Assembly (NCBI RefSeq): GCF_024498075.1
Contig: NZ_JANHOF010000005.1
Span: 372,001-436,000, forward strand
Origin: Paenibacillus mendelii
GTDB taxonomy: Bacteria > Bacillota > Bacilli > Paenibacillales > Paenibacillaceae
Reading direction: 5' to 3'
Length of the DNA stretch: 64,000 bases
The translations under genes and the position numbers were made by a program. Positions 5,753 to 10,512 of the stretch are shown in pieces. How positions within the stretch are numbered: the first letter of the stretch is position 1; each line of letters opens with the position of its first letter. The notes under the pieces were generated by a model, which was not told where the DNA came from, searched no databases, and saw nothing but the letters and a program-made list of their open reading frames with translations.

Positions 5753-5829
<77 letters not shown>

Positions 5830-5871: not shown

Positions 5872-5914
5872 TAGTTATTTATAATTTATTTCAGATCATT
5901 GACCGTTCGTTCAT

Positions 5915-5943
5915 TTGACATTTGAACATCGGTCAAATAAAAT
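5915..5943 (+). promoter_or_regulatory. Sigma-A promoter of the RND efflux operon
   Basis: TTGACA (5915-5920), a 17-base spacer, and TAAAAT (5938-5943) form a near-consensus sigma-A promoter about 55 bases before the swrC-like GTG start. A repeat element occupies the spacer exactly (see operator entry). A second overlapping pair, TTGAAC (5922-5927) and TATTAT (5946-5951) with 18-base spacing, is possible. Confidence 0.7.
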
Positions 5944-5969
5944 CTTATTATATTCGAACGTTGGTCAAA
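5920..5969 (+). promoter_or_regulatory. Twin operator-like repeats for the TetR regulator
   Basis: Two direct copies of ATTyGAACrTyGGTCAAA lie at 5920-5937 and 5952-5969, identical at 15 of 18 positions and 32 bases apart, about three helical turns. The first also has ATTTGA/TCAAAT inverted arms (5920-5938) and fills the promoter spacer. A poorer inverted copy is at 5900-5916. The TetR gene at the end of the same operon is the natural candidate ligand-responsive repressor; this link is inferred. Confidence 0.55.
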
Positions 5970-6000
5970 ACGGATACTAGAAGAGACAGGGAGTGGAAGT

Positions 6001-9000
6001 GTGAGAGGTATTATTCGGTTTTCACTGAATAACAAGTTTGCCATTTGGATCATGACGCTCATCGTAGTGGCTGGAGGTCTTTATTCCGGTCTCAGCATGA
6101 AGCAAGAAACGATTCCGAATATTAATGTGCCGATTCTGATGGTGAATACAGTTTATGTCGGCGCAGCTCCGGAAGAAGTGGCGGATAATGTGTCCAAGCC
6201 GCTAGAGCAGCGAATCGAGAATTTAAACGGAGTGACATCGGTAAGCTCGACTTCCAGCGAGAATGTCTCCTCCATCGTTGTTGAATATGACTATTCGAAG
6301 GATTTGAAGGAAGCAGAGGCTGAGCTTCGTGATATTGTGGATGGTTATGAGAAGCCTGAAGGGGCTCAAGATCCGCAAATTTCAAAAATTAGCCTGAATG
6401 ATTTCCCAGTCGTCTCACTCAGTGTCTCGGGCAAGGGGATGTCTTTAGAAGAAGTAACGAAGCTCGTGGAGAGCGAACTTAAGCCTGCACTAGAGGGCAT
6501 AGATGGGATAGGAACTGTTGCTATATCGGGACAGAATGTGAAAGAGGTTGTCCTGGTCTTTAATAAAGATAAGATGGATGCACTTGGCCTTTCGGAAGAA
6601 ACAGTGAAAGGAATTGTACAAGCATCGGCAATTAAGGCGCCGCTTGGCTTGTTCGAACTCGACAATTCAGAGAAGACGATTGTCGTTGACGGTAATGTCA
6701 CAACGCTGGAGCAGCTTAATAATGTGGCGATACCGGCTATTCCGTCTTCGGCAGGCGGAGCAGGTGCAGGAGCAGGAGGAGCCGCTGGCACTGGTATGCA
6801 GGCGCCCGGAGCATCTGCCCCAGAAGCACCTGTCGCAGGAGCGCCGGCTGCAGGCGCACAAGGCGCAGCGGGCATTCCTACCGTGAAGCTGTCGGATATA
6901 GCCGATGTTAAGCTTGTCGATAAAGCGGAGTCGATTTCGCGGACGAATGGCGAGCTGTCGATCGGTATTAATGCGACTAAGACTTCGGATGCGAATACGG
7001 TTGAGGTCGTCAATGGCGTGAAGGATGAAGCCGACAAATTCATGAGCAATCATGAGGGTGTCAGTACAGTTGTTCTGTTAGACCAAGGCAAGCCTATCGA
7101 AGACTCCGTAAGTACAATGATTGATAAGGCGCTGTTCGGTGCATTGTTTGCTGTTGTTGTCATCATGCTCTTCCTTCGTAATTTCCGCACGACGATTATA
7201 TCAGTCGTCTCGATTCCGCTATCCCTTGTTATCGCACTGCTTGTATTGAAGCAGATGGATATCACTCTTAATATTATGACTCTTGGGGCCATGACGGTCG
7301 CGATTGGCCGGGTAGTCGATGATTCGATTGTGGTTATCGAGAACAATTACCGGCGGATGGCGATGCGTTCCGAGAAGCTTAAAGGCAAGGAGCTCATTAT
7401 CGATGCGACACGGGAGATGTTTATCCCTATTCTGTCCTCGACGCTCGTAACCATTGCTGTATTCGTTCCGCTTGGCACAGTCAGCGGTCCAATCGGCGAG
7501 ATGTTTATGCCTTTCGCGCTTACGATGGTATTTGCCCTTCTTGCGTCGCTGCTTGTTGCGGTAACGGTCGTGCCGATGATGACGCATATGATGTTCCGCA
7601 AAGGGCTCAAAGCGAGCCAAACGCATGAGGAGAAGCCAGGAAGACTAAGCACTCAATACCGCAAAGTGTTGAACTGGTCGTTGAATCATAAACTGTTCAC
7701 ATTCCTAACGGCGGTTGTCATTCTAATCGCAAGCTGCTTCCTCACCCCGCTTGTAGGGGTCAGCTTCTTGCCGGAAGAAGAAGAAAAGTACGTGATGATT
7801 ACGTATGCGCCGGGTCCTGGCAAACTGCTCACGGACGTAGAGAAAACTTCACTTGAAGCCGAGAAGCTCATAATGAAGCGTGAGGGCATGACGAACCTGC
7901 AGTATTCCGTCGGCGGACAGAATCCGATGAGCTTCGGTCCGAGCAAGAGCGCATTGTTCTACATTCAATATGAGAACGACATGAACGATTTCTCTGCAGA
8001 GAAAGAAAAGCTTGTTGAGGATCTTCAGAAGCTGGAGCCGACCGGTAAATGGAGTCAGATGGACTTTAGCGGTGGAATGGGCGGGAGTAAGCTAAGCCTG
8101 TTCGTTTACGGTGACACGCTGGATGATATCAAGCCAGTTGTGGAGAATATTCAAAGTCTCATGGAGAAAAACAGCTCATTAGAAAAAGTGGATACTTCGC
8201 TTTCCAAAACGTATGAGCAGTACACGCTTGTAGCCGATCAAGAGAAGCTGAGCAGTCTTGGCTTGACTGCTGGTCAGGTTGCGATGAAACTGAGCCCGAT
8301 GCGCGAACGTTTGGTTCTAACCGAAGTCGCTGTGGATGGCAAGCAGTATAAAGTGTATATCGAAGTGGATCAGAAGCAGTACAAGACCATCGCGGATATC
8401 GAGAATGAGACAATCACGTCGCCGCTCGGCGTTACGGTTGCGCTCAAAGACGTAGTGAAGGTCGAGAAGGGGACTTCGTCCAACACCGTTACCCGCAAGG
8501 ACGGCAAGCTCTACGTCGAGGTGTCTGCGAACGTCAAAGATAAGAACGTCGGCAAAGTCTCAACGGATTTGCAGGCAGAAGTAAACAAAATCGAGAAGCC
8601 GGAATCGGTTAAGGTTGATTTCGGAGGCGTGACCGAGCAGATCAACGAAACCTTCACACAGCTTGGACTTGCAATGGCTGCCGCTATCGCTATCGTCTAC
8701 TTGCTTCTCGTAATCACGTTTGGCGGTGCCATAACACCATTTGCCATCCTGTTCTCTCTGCCATTCACGATTATCGGGGCATTGGTAGGTCTTTATTTGG
8801 CAGGGGAGACAATCAGCGCCACGGCCATGATGGGGATGCTCATGCTGATCGGCATCGTCGTGACGAATGCGATTGTACTGTTGGATCGCGTTCTGCATAT
8901 GGAGAAAGCGGGACTGAGCACCCGGGATGCGCTTATAGAAGCTGCCGGAACGCGTCTTAGACCGATTCTCATGACTGCACTTGCAACGATAGGTGCATTG

Positions 9001-9171
9001 CTTCCACTGGTTCTGGGCTTCGAAGGGGGCAGCGGTGGTTTGATTTCGAAAGGACTGGGCGTAACGGTTATCGGAGGTTTGGCCAGCTCAACGCTGCTGA
9101 CGCTGCTTATCGTACCGATCGTTTACGAATTTTTGGCCAAGTTCCGTAGAAAAACCGCAGACGAACAGTAA
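6001..9171 (+). CDS. swrC: RND efflux pump, SwrC/AcrB family
   Basis: Proton-driven resistance-nodulation-division transporter of the hydrophobe/amphiphile efflux family in the cytoplasmic membrane; the B. subtilis relative SwrC (YerP) exports the lipopeptide surfactin. 1056 residues, the usual length. Seen: the first membrane helix (IWIMTLIVVAGGLYSG), the two large outward loops, GRVVDDSIVVIEN with the paired Asp of the proton relay in TM4, and a second half with MLMLIGIVVTNAIVLLDRV. It starts with GTG after AGGGAGTGGAA. Residues 249-291 form an Ala/Gly/Pro-rich insertion in the first extracytoplasmic loop, unlike the flanking conserved sequence. The following TetR gene begins 12 bases later, so pump and regulator share a transcript. 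Substrate is not predictable. Confidence 0.9.
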   Translation: MRGIIRFSLNNKFAIWIMTLIVVAGGLYSGLSMKQETIPNINVPILMVNTVYVGAAPEEVADNVSKPLEQRIENLNGVTSVSSTSSENVSSIVVEYDYSKDLKEAEAELRDIVDGYEKPEGAQDPQISKISLNDFPVVSLSVSGKGMSLEEVTKLVESELKPALEGIDGIGTVAISGQNVKEVVLVFNKDKMDALGLSEETVKGIVQASAIKAPLGLFELDNSEKTIVVDGNVTTLEQLNNVAIPAIPSSAGGAGAGAGGAAGTGMQAPGASAPEAPVAGAPAAGAQGAAGIPTVKLSDIADVKLVDKAESISRTNGELSIGINATKTSDANTVEVVNGVKDEADKFMSNHEGVSTVVLLDQGKPIEDSVSTMIDKALFGALFAVVVIMLFLRNFRTTIISVVSIPLSLVIALLVLKQMDITLNIMTLGAMTVAIGRVVDDSIVVIENNYRRMAMRSEKLKGKELIIDATREMFIPILSSTLVTIAVFVPLGTVSGPIGEMFMPFALTMVFALLASLLVAVTVVPMMTHMMFRKGLKASQTHEEKPGRLSTQYRKVLNWSLNHKLFTFLTAVVILIASCFLTPLVGVSFLPEEEEKYVMITYAPGPGKLLTDVEKTSLEAEKLIMKREGMTNLQYSVGGQNPMSFGPSKSALFYIQYENDMNDFSAEKEKLVEDLQKLEPTGKWSQMDFSGGMGGSKLSLFVYGDTLDDIKPVVENIQSLMEKNSSLEKVDTSLSKTYEQYTLVADQEKLSSLGLTAGQVAMKLSPMRERLVLTEVAVDGKQYKVYIEVDQKQYKTIADIENETITSPLGVTVALKDVVKVEKGTSSNTVTRKDGKLYVEVSANVKDKNVGKVSTDLQAEVNKIEKPESVKVDFGGVTEQINETFTQLGLAMAAAIAIVYLLLVITFGGAITPFAILFSLPFTIIGALVGLYLAGETISATAMMGMLMLIGIVVTNAIVLLDRVLHMEKAGLSTRDALIEAAGTRLRPILMTALATIGALLPLVLGFEGGSGGLISKGLGVTVIGGLASSTLLTLLIVPIVYEFLAKFRRKTADEQ

Positions 9172-9183
9172 TAAGGCGGTGAG

Positions 9184-10077
9184 GTGCGTTTGGAAGGAAA
9201 AAAACAGAAAATCATTCATTCCGCAATCAAATGCTTTTCTGAAAAGGGCTATCGAGGCACTTCCATTCAGGATATAGCGGATTCGATTGGGATTGCGAAA
9301 GGATCGTTATACTTTTATTTCAAGTCGAAAGAGGATCTTCTCTTATCGATTATCAAATATTATTTGAAAACCATTAATGACGAATTCCAAGAATTAATCG
9401 AACGCGTTGATCTATCGACGGAGGATCTGCTTCGCGAGCACGTTATTATGAGCTATCGCATGTACGATAAACACAAGAATTTCTTCTCGCTGCTGATGCA
9501 GGAGAGGCTTGAAGTGAATGCCGAGATGCATGAGCTTATAGTGGGGGCCCGCAGACAGGGACTGTTCTATTGCCATCAGATGATTATACGTGTATACGGG
9601 GAACGTGTGAGGCCTTACGCTTGTGATGCGGCGGTACTCTTTCAAGCGATCATGGATGGCTACCTCGGCCTTGCCGTGATGGGGAACCAGAACTTCGATA
9701 CGGAGAGGCTGGGAAGCTATGTGCGGGATCGGACGGACGTTCTAGTCCATCAGCTGATCGAATCGCAGGCGGCTACCATGCTAGGCGATGAAACCCTGGA
9801 GCAATGGAATGCTACCGTTGTAGCCGGTCAAGGCGGGAAGACGGGGATTCTCTTGGAAATCGATGCCTTGAAAAAGGCGGTGGATCAAGCTGATTTGCAA
9901 GAGGCTGAACTGGACGAGGTTCATTCGACGCTGGAGGTGCTGGGTGCCGAGTTCGAGAAAGCGGAGCCCCAGCCCGTGGTTATTAAAGGCATGCTTGCAT
10001 TGTTGAAGACGATCCATTCGGCCAAAATCAAGAAGCAAGTCGTGAAGCTGGAGAGCCAGGTACTGGAACTTCTATAA
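9184..10077 (+). CDS. TetR-family transcriptional regulator with long C-terminal extension
   Basis: Residues about 9-55 are a typical TetR HTH domain: AIKCFSEKGYRGTSIQDIA then IGIAKGSLYFYFKSKEDLL. The ligand-binding part runs to about 200, and a further ~95 residues form a charged helical tail (ALKKAVDQADLQEAEL and a second helical segment). The length of 297 is much above the common 190-210 and close to that of B. subtilis YerO (about 289), the swrC-linked regulator. GTG at 9184 follows GGCGGTGAG. Its position directly after the pump gene and the repeats in the operon promoter suggest it represses the operon, including itself. Confidence 0.88.
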   Translation: MRLEGKKQKIIHSAIKCFSEKGYRGTSIQDIADSIGIAKGSLYFYFKSKEDLLLSIIKYYLKTINDEFQELIERVDLSTEDLLREHVIMSYRMYDKHKNFFSLLMQERLEVNAEMHELIVGARRQGLFYCHQMIIRVYGERVRPYACDAAVLFQAIMDGYLGLAVMGNQNFDTERLGSYVRDRTDVLVHQLIESQAATMLGDETLEQWNATVVAGQGGKTGILLEIDALKKAVDQADLQEAELDEVHSTLEVLGAEFEKAEPQPVVIKGMLALLKTIHSAKIKKQVVKLESQVLELL

Positions 10078-10185: not shown

Positions 10186-10219
10186 AATAAATAAATGCCG
10201 CCGGAAGATCCGGCGGCAG
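10186..10219 (-). terminator. Terminator of tRNA-Gly transcript
   Basis: The hairpin TGCCGCCGGA/TCCGGCGGCA (about 10197-10219) reads on the minus strand into TTTATTTATTTT. It lies some 200 bases past the tRNA-Gly 3' end, beyond a decayed tRNA-like piece. Confidence 0.6.
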
Positions 10220-10496: not shown

Positions 10497-10512
10497 AAAG
10501 TTAAGTAGGATC

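Follow-up and report, generated by a model that had tools for sequence, protein, structure and literature searches.

The window, meaning the whole stretch of 64,000 nucleotides that was analysed, comes from the 8.13-Mb genome of a soil bacterium related to Paenibacillus. It contains a swrC-like pump gene, followed on the same strand by a gene for a long TetR-family regulator, with 12 bp between the end of swrC and the start of tetR. A tRNA-Arg gene lies upstream of swrC on the opposite strand, and the 170-bp interval between the two (G+C content 33%) holds a predicted promoter and its operator-like sites. The features of the locus are listed below.

5753-5829, minus strand: tRNA-Arg gene (ARAGORN, run on the window only)
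5899-5914, no strand assigned: site A, a probable weak operator, TTGACC-GTTC-GTTCAT, with a 4-bp gap, directly upstream of the -35 box
5915-5920, plus strand: predicted -35 box TTGACA (promoter scan; TTGAC fixed in 7/7 genus promoters)
5921-5937, no strand assigned: site B, a putative operator, TTTGAAC-ATC-GGTCAAA, with a 3-bp gap, equal to the complete 17-nt spacer
5938-5943, plus strand: predicted -10 box TAAAAT (promoter scan; TAnnAT, four of six columns, fixed in 7/7 genus promoters)
5953-5969, no strand assigned: site C, a putative operator, TTCGAAC-GTT-GGTCAAA, with a 3-bp gap, over the expected transcription start
5990-5996, plus strand: ribosome-binding site GGAGTGG of swrC (from sequence; unchanged across the seven-row genus alignment)
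6001-9171, plus strand: gene for the swrC-like RND efflux pump, with a GTG start and 1056 aa (Pfam ACR_tran)
9184-10077, plus strand: gene for the long TetR-family regulator, with a GTG start and 297 aa (Pfam TetR_N; fold)
10196-10218, no strand assigned: terminator-like hairpin downstream of tetR (on both strands; consensus match only)

By eye, an opposite-strand tRNA-Arg gene, whole or partial, stands directly upstream of swrC in all seven genus rows (the window and L036-L041).

The pump matches the ACR_tran family of RND permeases (PF00873) with an E-value of 1.2e-197; it scores below the curated threshold of every one of the 19 NCBIfam models listed and thus receives no named subfamily there. 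The name swrC-like is an assumption that follows the original prediction. The regulator encoded from 9184 matches TetR_N (PF00440) over residues 10-55 (E 5.5e-18; score 64.9 bits, cut-off 24), and its structural model, built from a two-row alignment with a mean pLDDT of 66.7, is predicted to adopt the all-helical TetR-family fold over about residues 1-195. The best fold match of this model is FasR (6o6p; Z 15.8, 186 residues, rmsd 2.9). FadR of Bacillus and FasR of Mycobacterium tuberculosis share the same TetR fold over about residues 1-190 (Z 14.4-15.8), but their identity to the window regulator is only 13-21%, and the latter continues for about 100 residues beyond the shared fold at its C-terminus. 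In the window this extension corresponds to 9784-10074 (residues 201-297), where the model is of low confidence and Pfam gives no match. Among solved structures, those nearest in sequence align with nothing beyond the N-terminal portion of the regulator and do not narrow the ligand; the fold matches likewise leave the ligand unnamed, because many TetR-family chains score nearly equally.

The best promoter-like site between 5000 and 10500 is TTGACA-17-TAAAAT, which agrees with 11 of the 12 consensus positions. Since TTGACA begins at 5915, 17 nucleotides intervene and TAAAAT ends at 5943, the spacer is exactly 5921-5937. The original prediction described two 18-base repeats, 32 bases apart, one of which fills this spacer, and reading of the sequence bears this out: the 18-mers ATTTGAACATCGGTCAAA (5920-5937) and ATTCGAACGTTGGTCAAA (5952-5969) are identical at 15 of 18 positions and start 32 bp apart. 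Strictly, 17 of the 18 bases of the first copy lie in the spacer, because base 5920 is the final base of the -35 box. The two copies are indeed similar, but the description of them as direct repeats is incomplete, as each copy is itself an inverted repeat and a probable third site lies upstream. Sites B and C are imperfect palindromes of the form TTTGAMC-N3-GKTCAAA, shaped like TetR-family operators, with six of eight dyad pairs in site B and five of eight in site C. Site A, TTGACCGTTCGTTCAT, is an inverted repeat that agrees with 11 of 12 half-site positions, and its left half, TGACC, is found again in five of the seven genus rows. A repeat search gave no direct-repeat family at 5920-5969, because it starts from exact 9-base seeds and the two 18-mer copies share no more than 7 identical bases in a row.

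Downstream of this promoter, no plus-strand promoter-like site occurs among the matches listed between 6723 and the scan end at 10500. With the regulator gene placed behind the pump gene in the same orientation, one promoter would serve both.

The arrangement in the 170-bp region is rare in dinucleotide shuffles: an 18-mer repeat with at least 15 identities within 80 bp arose in 1 of 300, and two similar 17-bp near-palindromes, a criterion set post hoc, in 1 of 2000. Single sites carry less information. In the 64-kb window the motif with up to three mismatches was found three times, one of these being site B read on its other strand, where 1.05 matches were expected; three matches were also reached in 10 of 100 shuffles. 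This test is weak, because three mismatches are tolerated whereas the real sites have none, and the motif was derived from them. In the whole genome TTGAMCNNNGKTCAAA occurs exactly at site B alone, on both strands. With up to one mismatch it gives 14 forward and 16 reverse matches, compared with 12 and 10 in a backwards control (the surroundings of 12 of these 30 near-match loci were inspected by eye). The looser rule TYGAMCNNNGKTCRA is matched exactly at eight places genome-wide versus six in the backwards control, so that single sites are at chance level and it is the pair in the promoter, together with its conservation, that carries weight. The 4-bp form with up to one mismatch is common in the genome (79 matches, site A one of them, versus 57 in the control), and site A is therefore weak when taken alone.

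The conservation of the sites was assessed in 22 genomes of the genus, of which 16 contain a TetR match with an E-value of at most 1e-20 and seven, the window's own included, a close one (identity of at least 48%). The same seven genomes carry the pump at E 1e-200 or better, and swrC and tetR are adjacent in all of them. Each of the seven promoters consists of TTGAC[AT], then a 17-bp palindrome, then TAnnAT. When they are aligned ungapped on site B, five of six columns are invariant in the -35 box, 10 of 17 in site B and four of six in the -10 box; in the flanks, invariance is limited to 2 of 54 columns on the upstream side and 3 of 44 on the downstream side. All seven promoters have a counterpart of site C whose centre is 32-33 bp from that of B. 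Both sites are present before the pump in 6/6 of the other genus orthologues, where their absence would have told against the original prediction. The TTGAC-[palindrome]-TAnnAT block occurs in exactly those seven of the 295 family genomes that possess the close SwrC-TetR pair, and it is absent from the 288 remaining family genomes searched; the pattern was written from the seven, so only the absence elsewhere counts as a test. In this respect the proposal that the repeats are operator-like elements of the swrC promoter, tied to this TetR, has held (seven pair-bearing genomes, 0/288 others). Putative palindromic operators, characteristic of the TetR family, are found by sequence and conservation at the operon's own promoter.

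For a wider survey across Bacilli, long-TetR searches were made in 295 family (E 1e-40), 296 order (E 1e-36) and 398 class (E 1e-33) genomes, which are overlapping sets drawn from larger groups, and gave matches in 18, 21 and 16 genomes, respectively. Of 66 fetched regions, 38 have a SwrC of at least 50% identity near the TetR gene and 28, which were left unscanned, do not. The promoter regions of the 38, together with the window, were searched for inverted pairs of T[TC]GA[AC]C half-sites separated by gaps of 0-8 bp. Four regions (L050, L052, L150 and L153) extend 150 bases beyond the inferred start, SwrC being aligned there in part, and L159 and the seven divergent regions differ in length from the others. 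At least one site scoring at least 11/12 with a 3- or 4-bp gap was detected in 31 of the 39 SwrC promoter regions beside a long-TetR gene: 28 of 31 with the order swrC>tetR, three of seven divergent ones and none of the one with the order tetR>swrC. All 15 regions that had been viewed before the half-site rule existed are site-positive, as are 16 of the 24 not viewed before. Over the 39 regions there are 22 sites with a 3-bp gap versus about 0.27 expected and 43 with a 4-bp gap versus about 0.16; mononucleotide shuffles of all 39 regions, which preserve base composition only, gave 0.15-0.31 sites per gap. Counting all gaps, the genus rows contain 12 sites at 3 bp, three at 4 bp and two at 0; outside the genus there are 10 three-bp sites, 40 four-bp sites and eight with a gap of 0, 1 or 5. 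Of the six hits at 0 bp, five overlap sites of the 4-bp form. No 11/12 site was found in eight of the 39 regions (L152, L157, L159, L162, L167, L172, L175 and L181), among them four of the seven divergent regions and the sole tetR>swrC region; six of the eight have 10/12 sites at a 4-bp gap, and L152 and L159 have none.

The 3-bp form is present in 12 promoters, namely the genus seven (window included) and L146-L150, and 19 promoters have the 4-bp form only. In a tree of 38 TetR proteins, in which seven rows are without a gap label, all 12 three-bp rows fall inside one branch (98/96), which also holds L166, with 4-bp sites, and L152, with no site. The label needs two changes on this tree, a number that none of 500 shuffles matched or undercut; 34% of 200 bootstrap trees need one change, and holding the 12 three-bp rows together is not rejected (p-AU 0.228). 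In these sequence comparisons the half-site gap tracks the ancestry of the operon's own TetR. The 3-bp and 4-bp groups differ little in the recognition-helix region, which reads IAKGSLYFYFKSK in the window. A residue next to position 108 is missing in 12/12 three-bp proteins and present in 18 of the 19 four-bp proteins, and this position falls between modelled helices 98-105 and 113-138, at the junction of helices 6 and 7. The missing residue is a candidate cause of the 3-bp gap, confounded with ancestry; L166 and L152 also lack the extra residue, and the idea is weakened because L166 nevertheless has 4-bp sites.

In 10 of the 12 three-bp promoters the operator is centred exactly in the 17-nt spacer; in L148 the site in the spacer scores 10/12, and in L149 the -10 box is only weak (both by eye). 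The in-spacer layout is not unique to the 3-bp form, because the four-bp promoters L049 and L050 also have a site within the spacer, half a base off centre. In L040 and L041 the spacer holds a 3-bp site, yet the gap of site C is 4 bp, and site A of the window is also of the 4-bp form; in L040 and L041, where both gaps occur in one promoter, one repressor would need to read both. We consider it possible, although somewhat doubtful, that a branch of these repressors shifted its half-site reading from 4 to 3 bp with the half-sites unchanged, and that the resulting 17-bp operator became locked into the 17-nt spacer. If such a shift took place, these promoters would provide a natural series on how a dimeric repressor alters its half-site distance.

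The centre-to-centre spacings that recur among the operator pairs are 32-33, 66, 80-81 and 99-101 bp, and those of 12, 18, 20, 22.5, 34, 40, 74 and 85 bp appear once or twice each. In five four-bp rows two sites lie 66 bp apart; a promoter-like site lies between them in four and none is listed for L161. It had been argued that the 32-bp spacing places both repeats on the same face of the helix. Same-face spacing was rejected as a general rule, since relatives have their sites at 66 bp (6.29 turns) or at 99-101 bp (about 9.5 turns). As a separate observation, three of the four recurrent spacing classes are near multiples of 33.

Taken together, the sites and their fit to the promoter, the order of the genes, and the way in which the sites are conserved along with this regulator very probably mark a control region of an autoregulated TetR/RND-efflux operon. 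Beyond the sites and the gene order, we infer the steps of co-transcription, binding, repression, induction and transport from the TetR family in general. The protein encoded at 9184-10077 would bind, as a dimer, to the palindromic sites within its own operon's promoter. A dimer at sites B and C would be expected to keep RNA polymerase off, because B sits between the -35 and -10 boxes and C at the expected start. A substrate or membrane-active compound, one that the pump removes, would then free the repressor, and after its release pump and repressor would be made together from one transcript.

Conservation beside a neighbouring regulator does not by itself prove which protein binds, and the palindromes alone leave their protein unnamed. 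Another TetR-family paralogue could occupy the sites in place of the operon's own regulator; the genome contains a second long TetR of 25% identity (G000:C1:49654-50514), and the recognition-helix region is widely kept among aligned relatives. We regard this as improbable, since the block is missing in all 15 genus genomes without the close pair, nine of which have a TetR match at E<=1e-20, and since the half-site gap follows the operon's own TetR. A different type of repressor is suggested by the GAAC and GTTC arms present among the sites, which recall SOS boxes bound by LexA. The Gram-positive LexA box is GAAC-N4-GTTC, with a 4-bp gap, whereas sites B and C depart from it in their 3-bp gap and in their GGTC arm. 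This 3-bp gap led us to drop the SOS reading, and the GACC/GGTC arms in many relatives and the link between the gap and the ancestry of the adjoining TetR render it very improbable.

The repeat might also reflect promoter constraint and chance, and bind nothing: the two promoter boxes, TTGACA and TAAAAT, are conserved for reasons of their own, near-repeats occur in A+T-rich promoters, and single sites in the genome are no commoner than in the control. Such an explanation is scarcely credible in view of the 10 of 17 spacer columns that are invariant in seven genomes as against 5 of 98 flank columns, the rarity of the repeat (1/300) and of the double palindrome (1/2000) in shuffles, and the recovery of the sites outside the genus.

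In Bacillus subtilis, a YerO regulator, as we take it, adjoins swrC; a literature search, mostly outside subscription papers, retrieved no paper naming both YerO and swrC. SwrC (YerP) of that species is described as a surfactin exporter (PMC12096827, PMC10988940), and the pump of the window, being of the RND family, is of the same broad type. The text of these two papers contains neither "TetR" nor "YerO". In titles and abstract openings, again mostly outside subscription papers, we found no description of an operator for a SwrC-linked TetR. A testable operator is now proposed for the recurrent pair of SwrC-type pump and long TetR.

Autoregulated TetR-pump units are of a standard kind, already known. 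As described in PMC3511530, TetR/tetA-type pairs have in common with the present locus a TetR-family gene beside a pump, paired palindromic operators and presumed release by a ligand; here, in contrast, the regulator gene lies downstream of the pump gene and is read in the same direction, not divergently. The same paper assigns 15% of 372 Streptomyces TetR-family genes to a co-transcribed class and 67% to a divergent class (PMC3511530). A closer parallel for the gap is AmtR of Corynebacterium glutamicum, also a TetR-family protein with operator half-sites at a fixed gap: according to PMC2723105, the amtR upstream site with a gap of 3 bp, not 4, is unbound, and one added base restores binding. 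The AmtR half-sites are different, and its 3-bp site is unbound, whereas 3-bp sites predominate in the branch described here, two genomes of which combine both forms in one promoter. Judged by sequence, this branch would be a notable variant beside the unbound 3-bp gap of AmtR. If the shift in spacing is true, it can be asked whether promoter geometry drove a change of gap that blocks binding in AmtR (PMC2723105).

Some further observations concern the surveyed regions and the genome of the window. The alignment of SwrC is split into three pieces in L165 and into two overlapping ones in L048, where the gene is seemingly broken or frameshifted in both cases; the fragmentation could be due to sequencing error. 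L053-L065, which include the second long TetR of the window's genome, form another long TetR-family set of about 25-30% identity, with no nearby SwrC of at least 50% identity. The eight exact TYGAMCNNNGKTCRA places in the genome comprise sites B and C and six others, four of them lone and two paired on contig C33; apart from B and C, this pair contains the only such places less than 50 bp from each other. At G000:C33:18378-18441 (L092, about 1501-1565) there are two copies, 47 bp apart, of a perfect 17-bp palindrome with a 3-bp gap, GTTGACCATAGGTCAAC, inside a tandem repeat between an ABC-transporter permease-like gene and a sensor-like gene (both named by eye). The C33 pair could be a second target of the regulator encoded from 9184, or the operator of something else.
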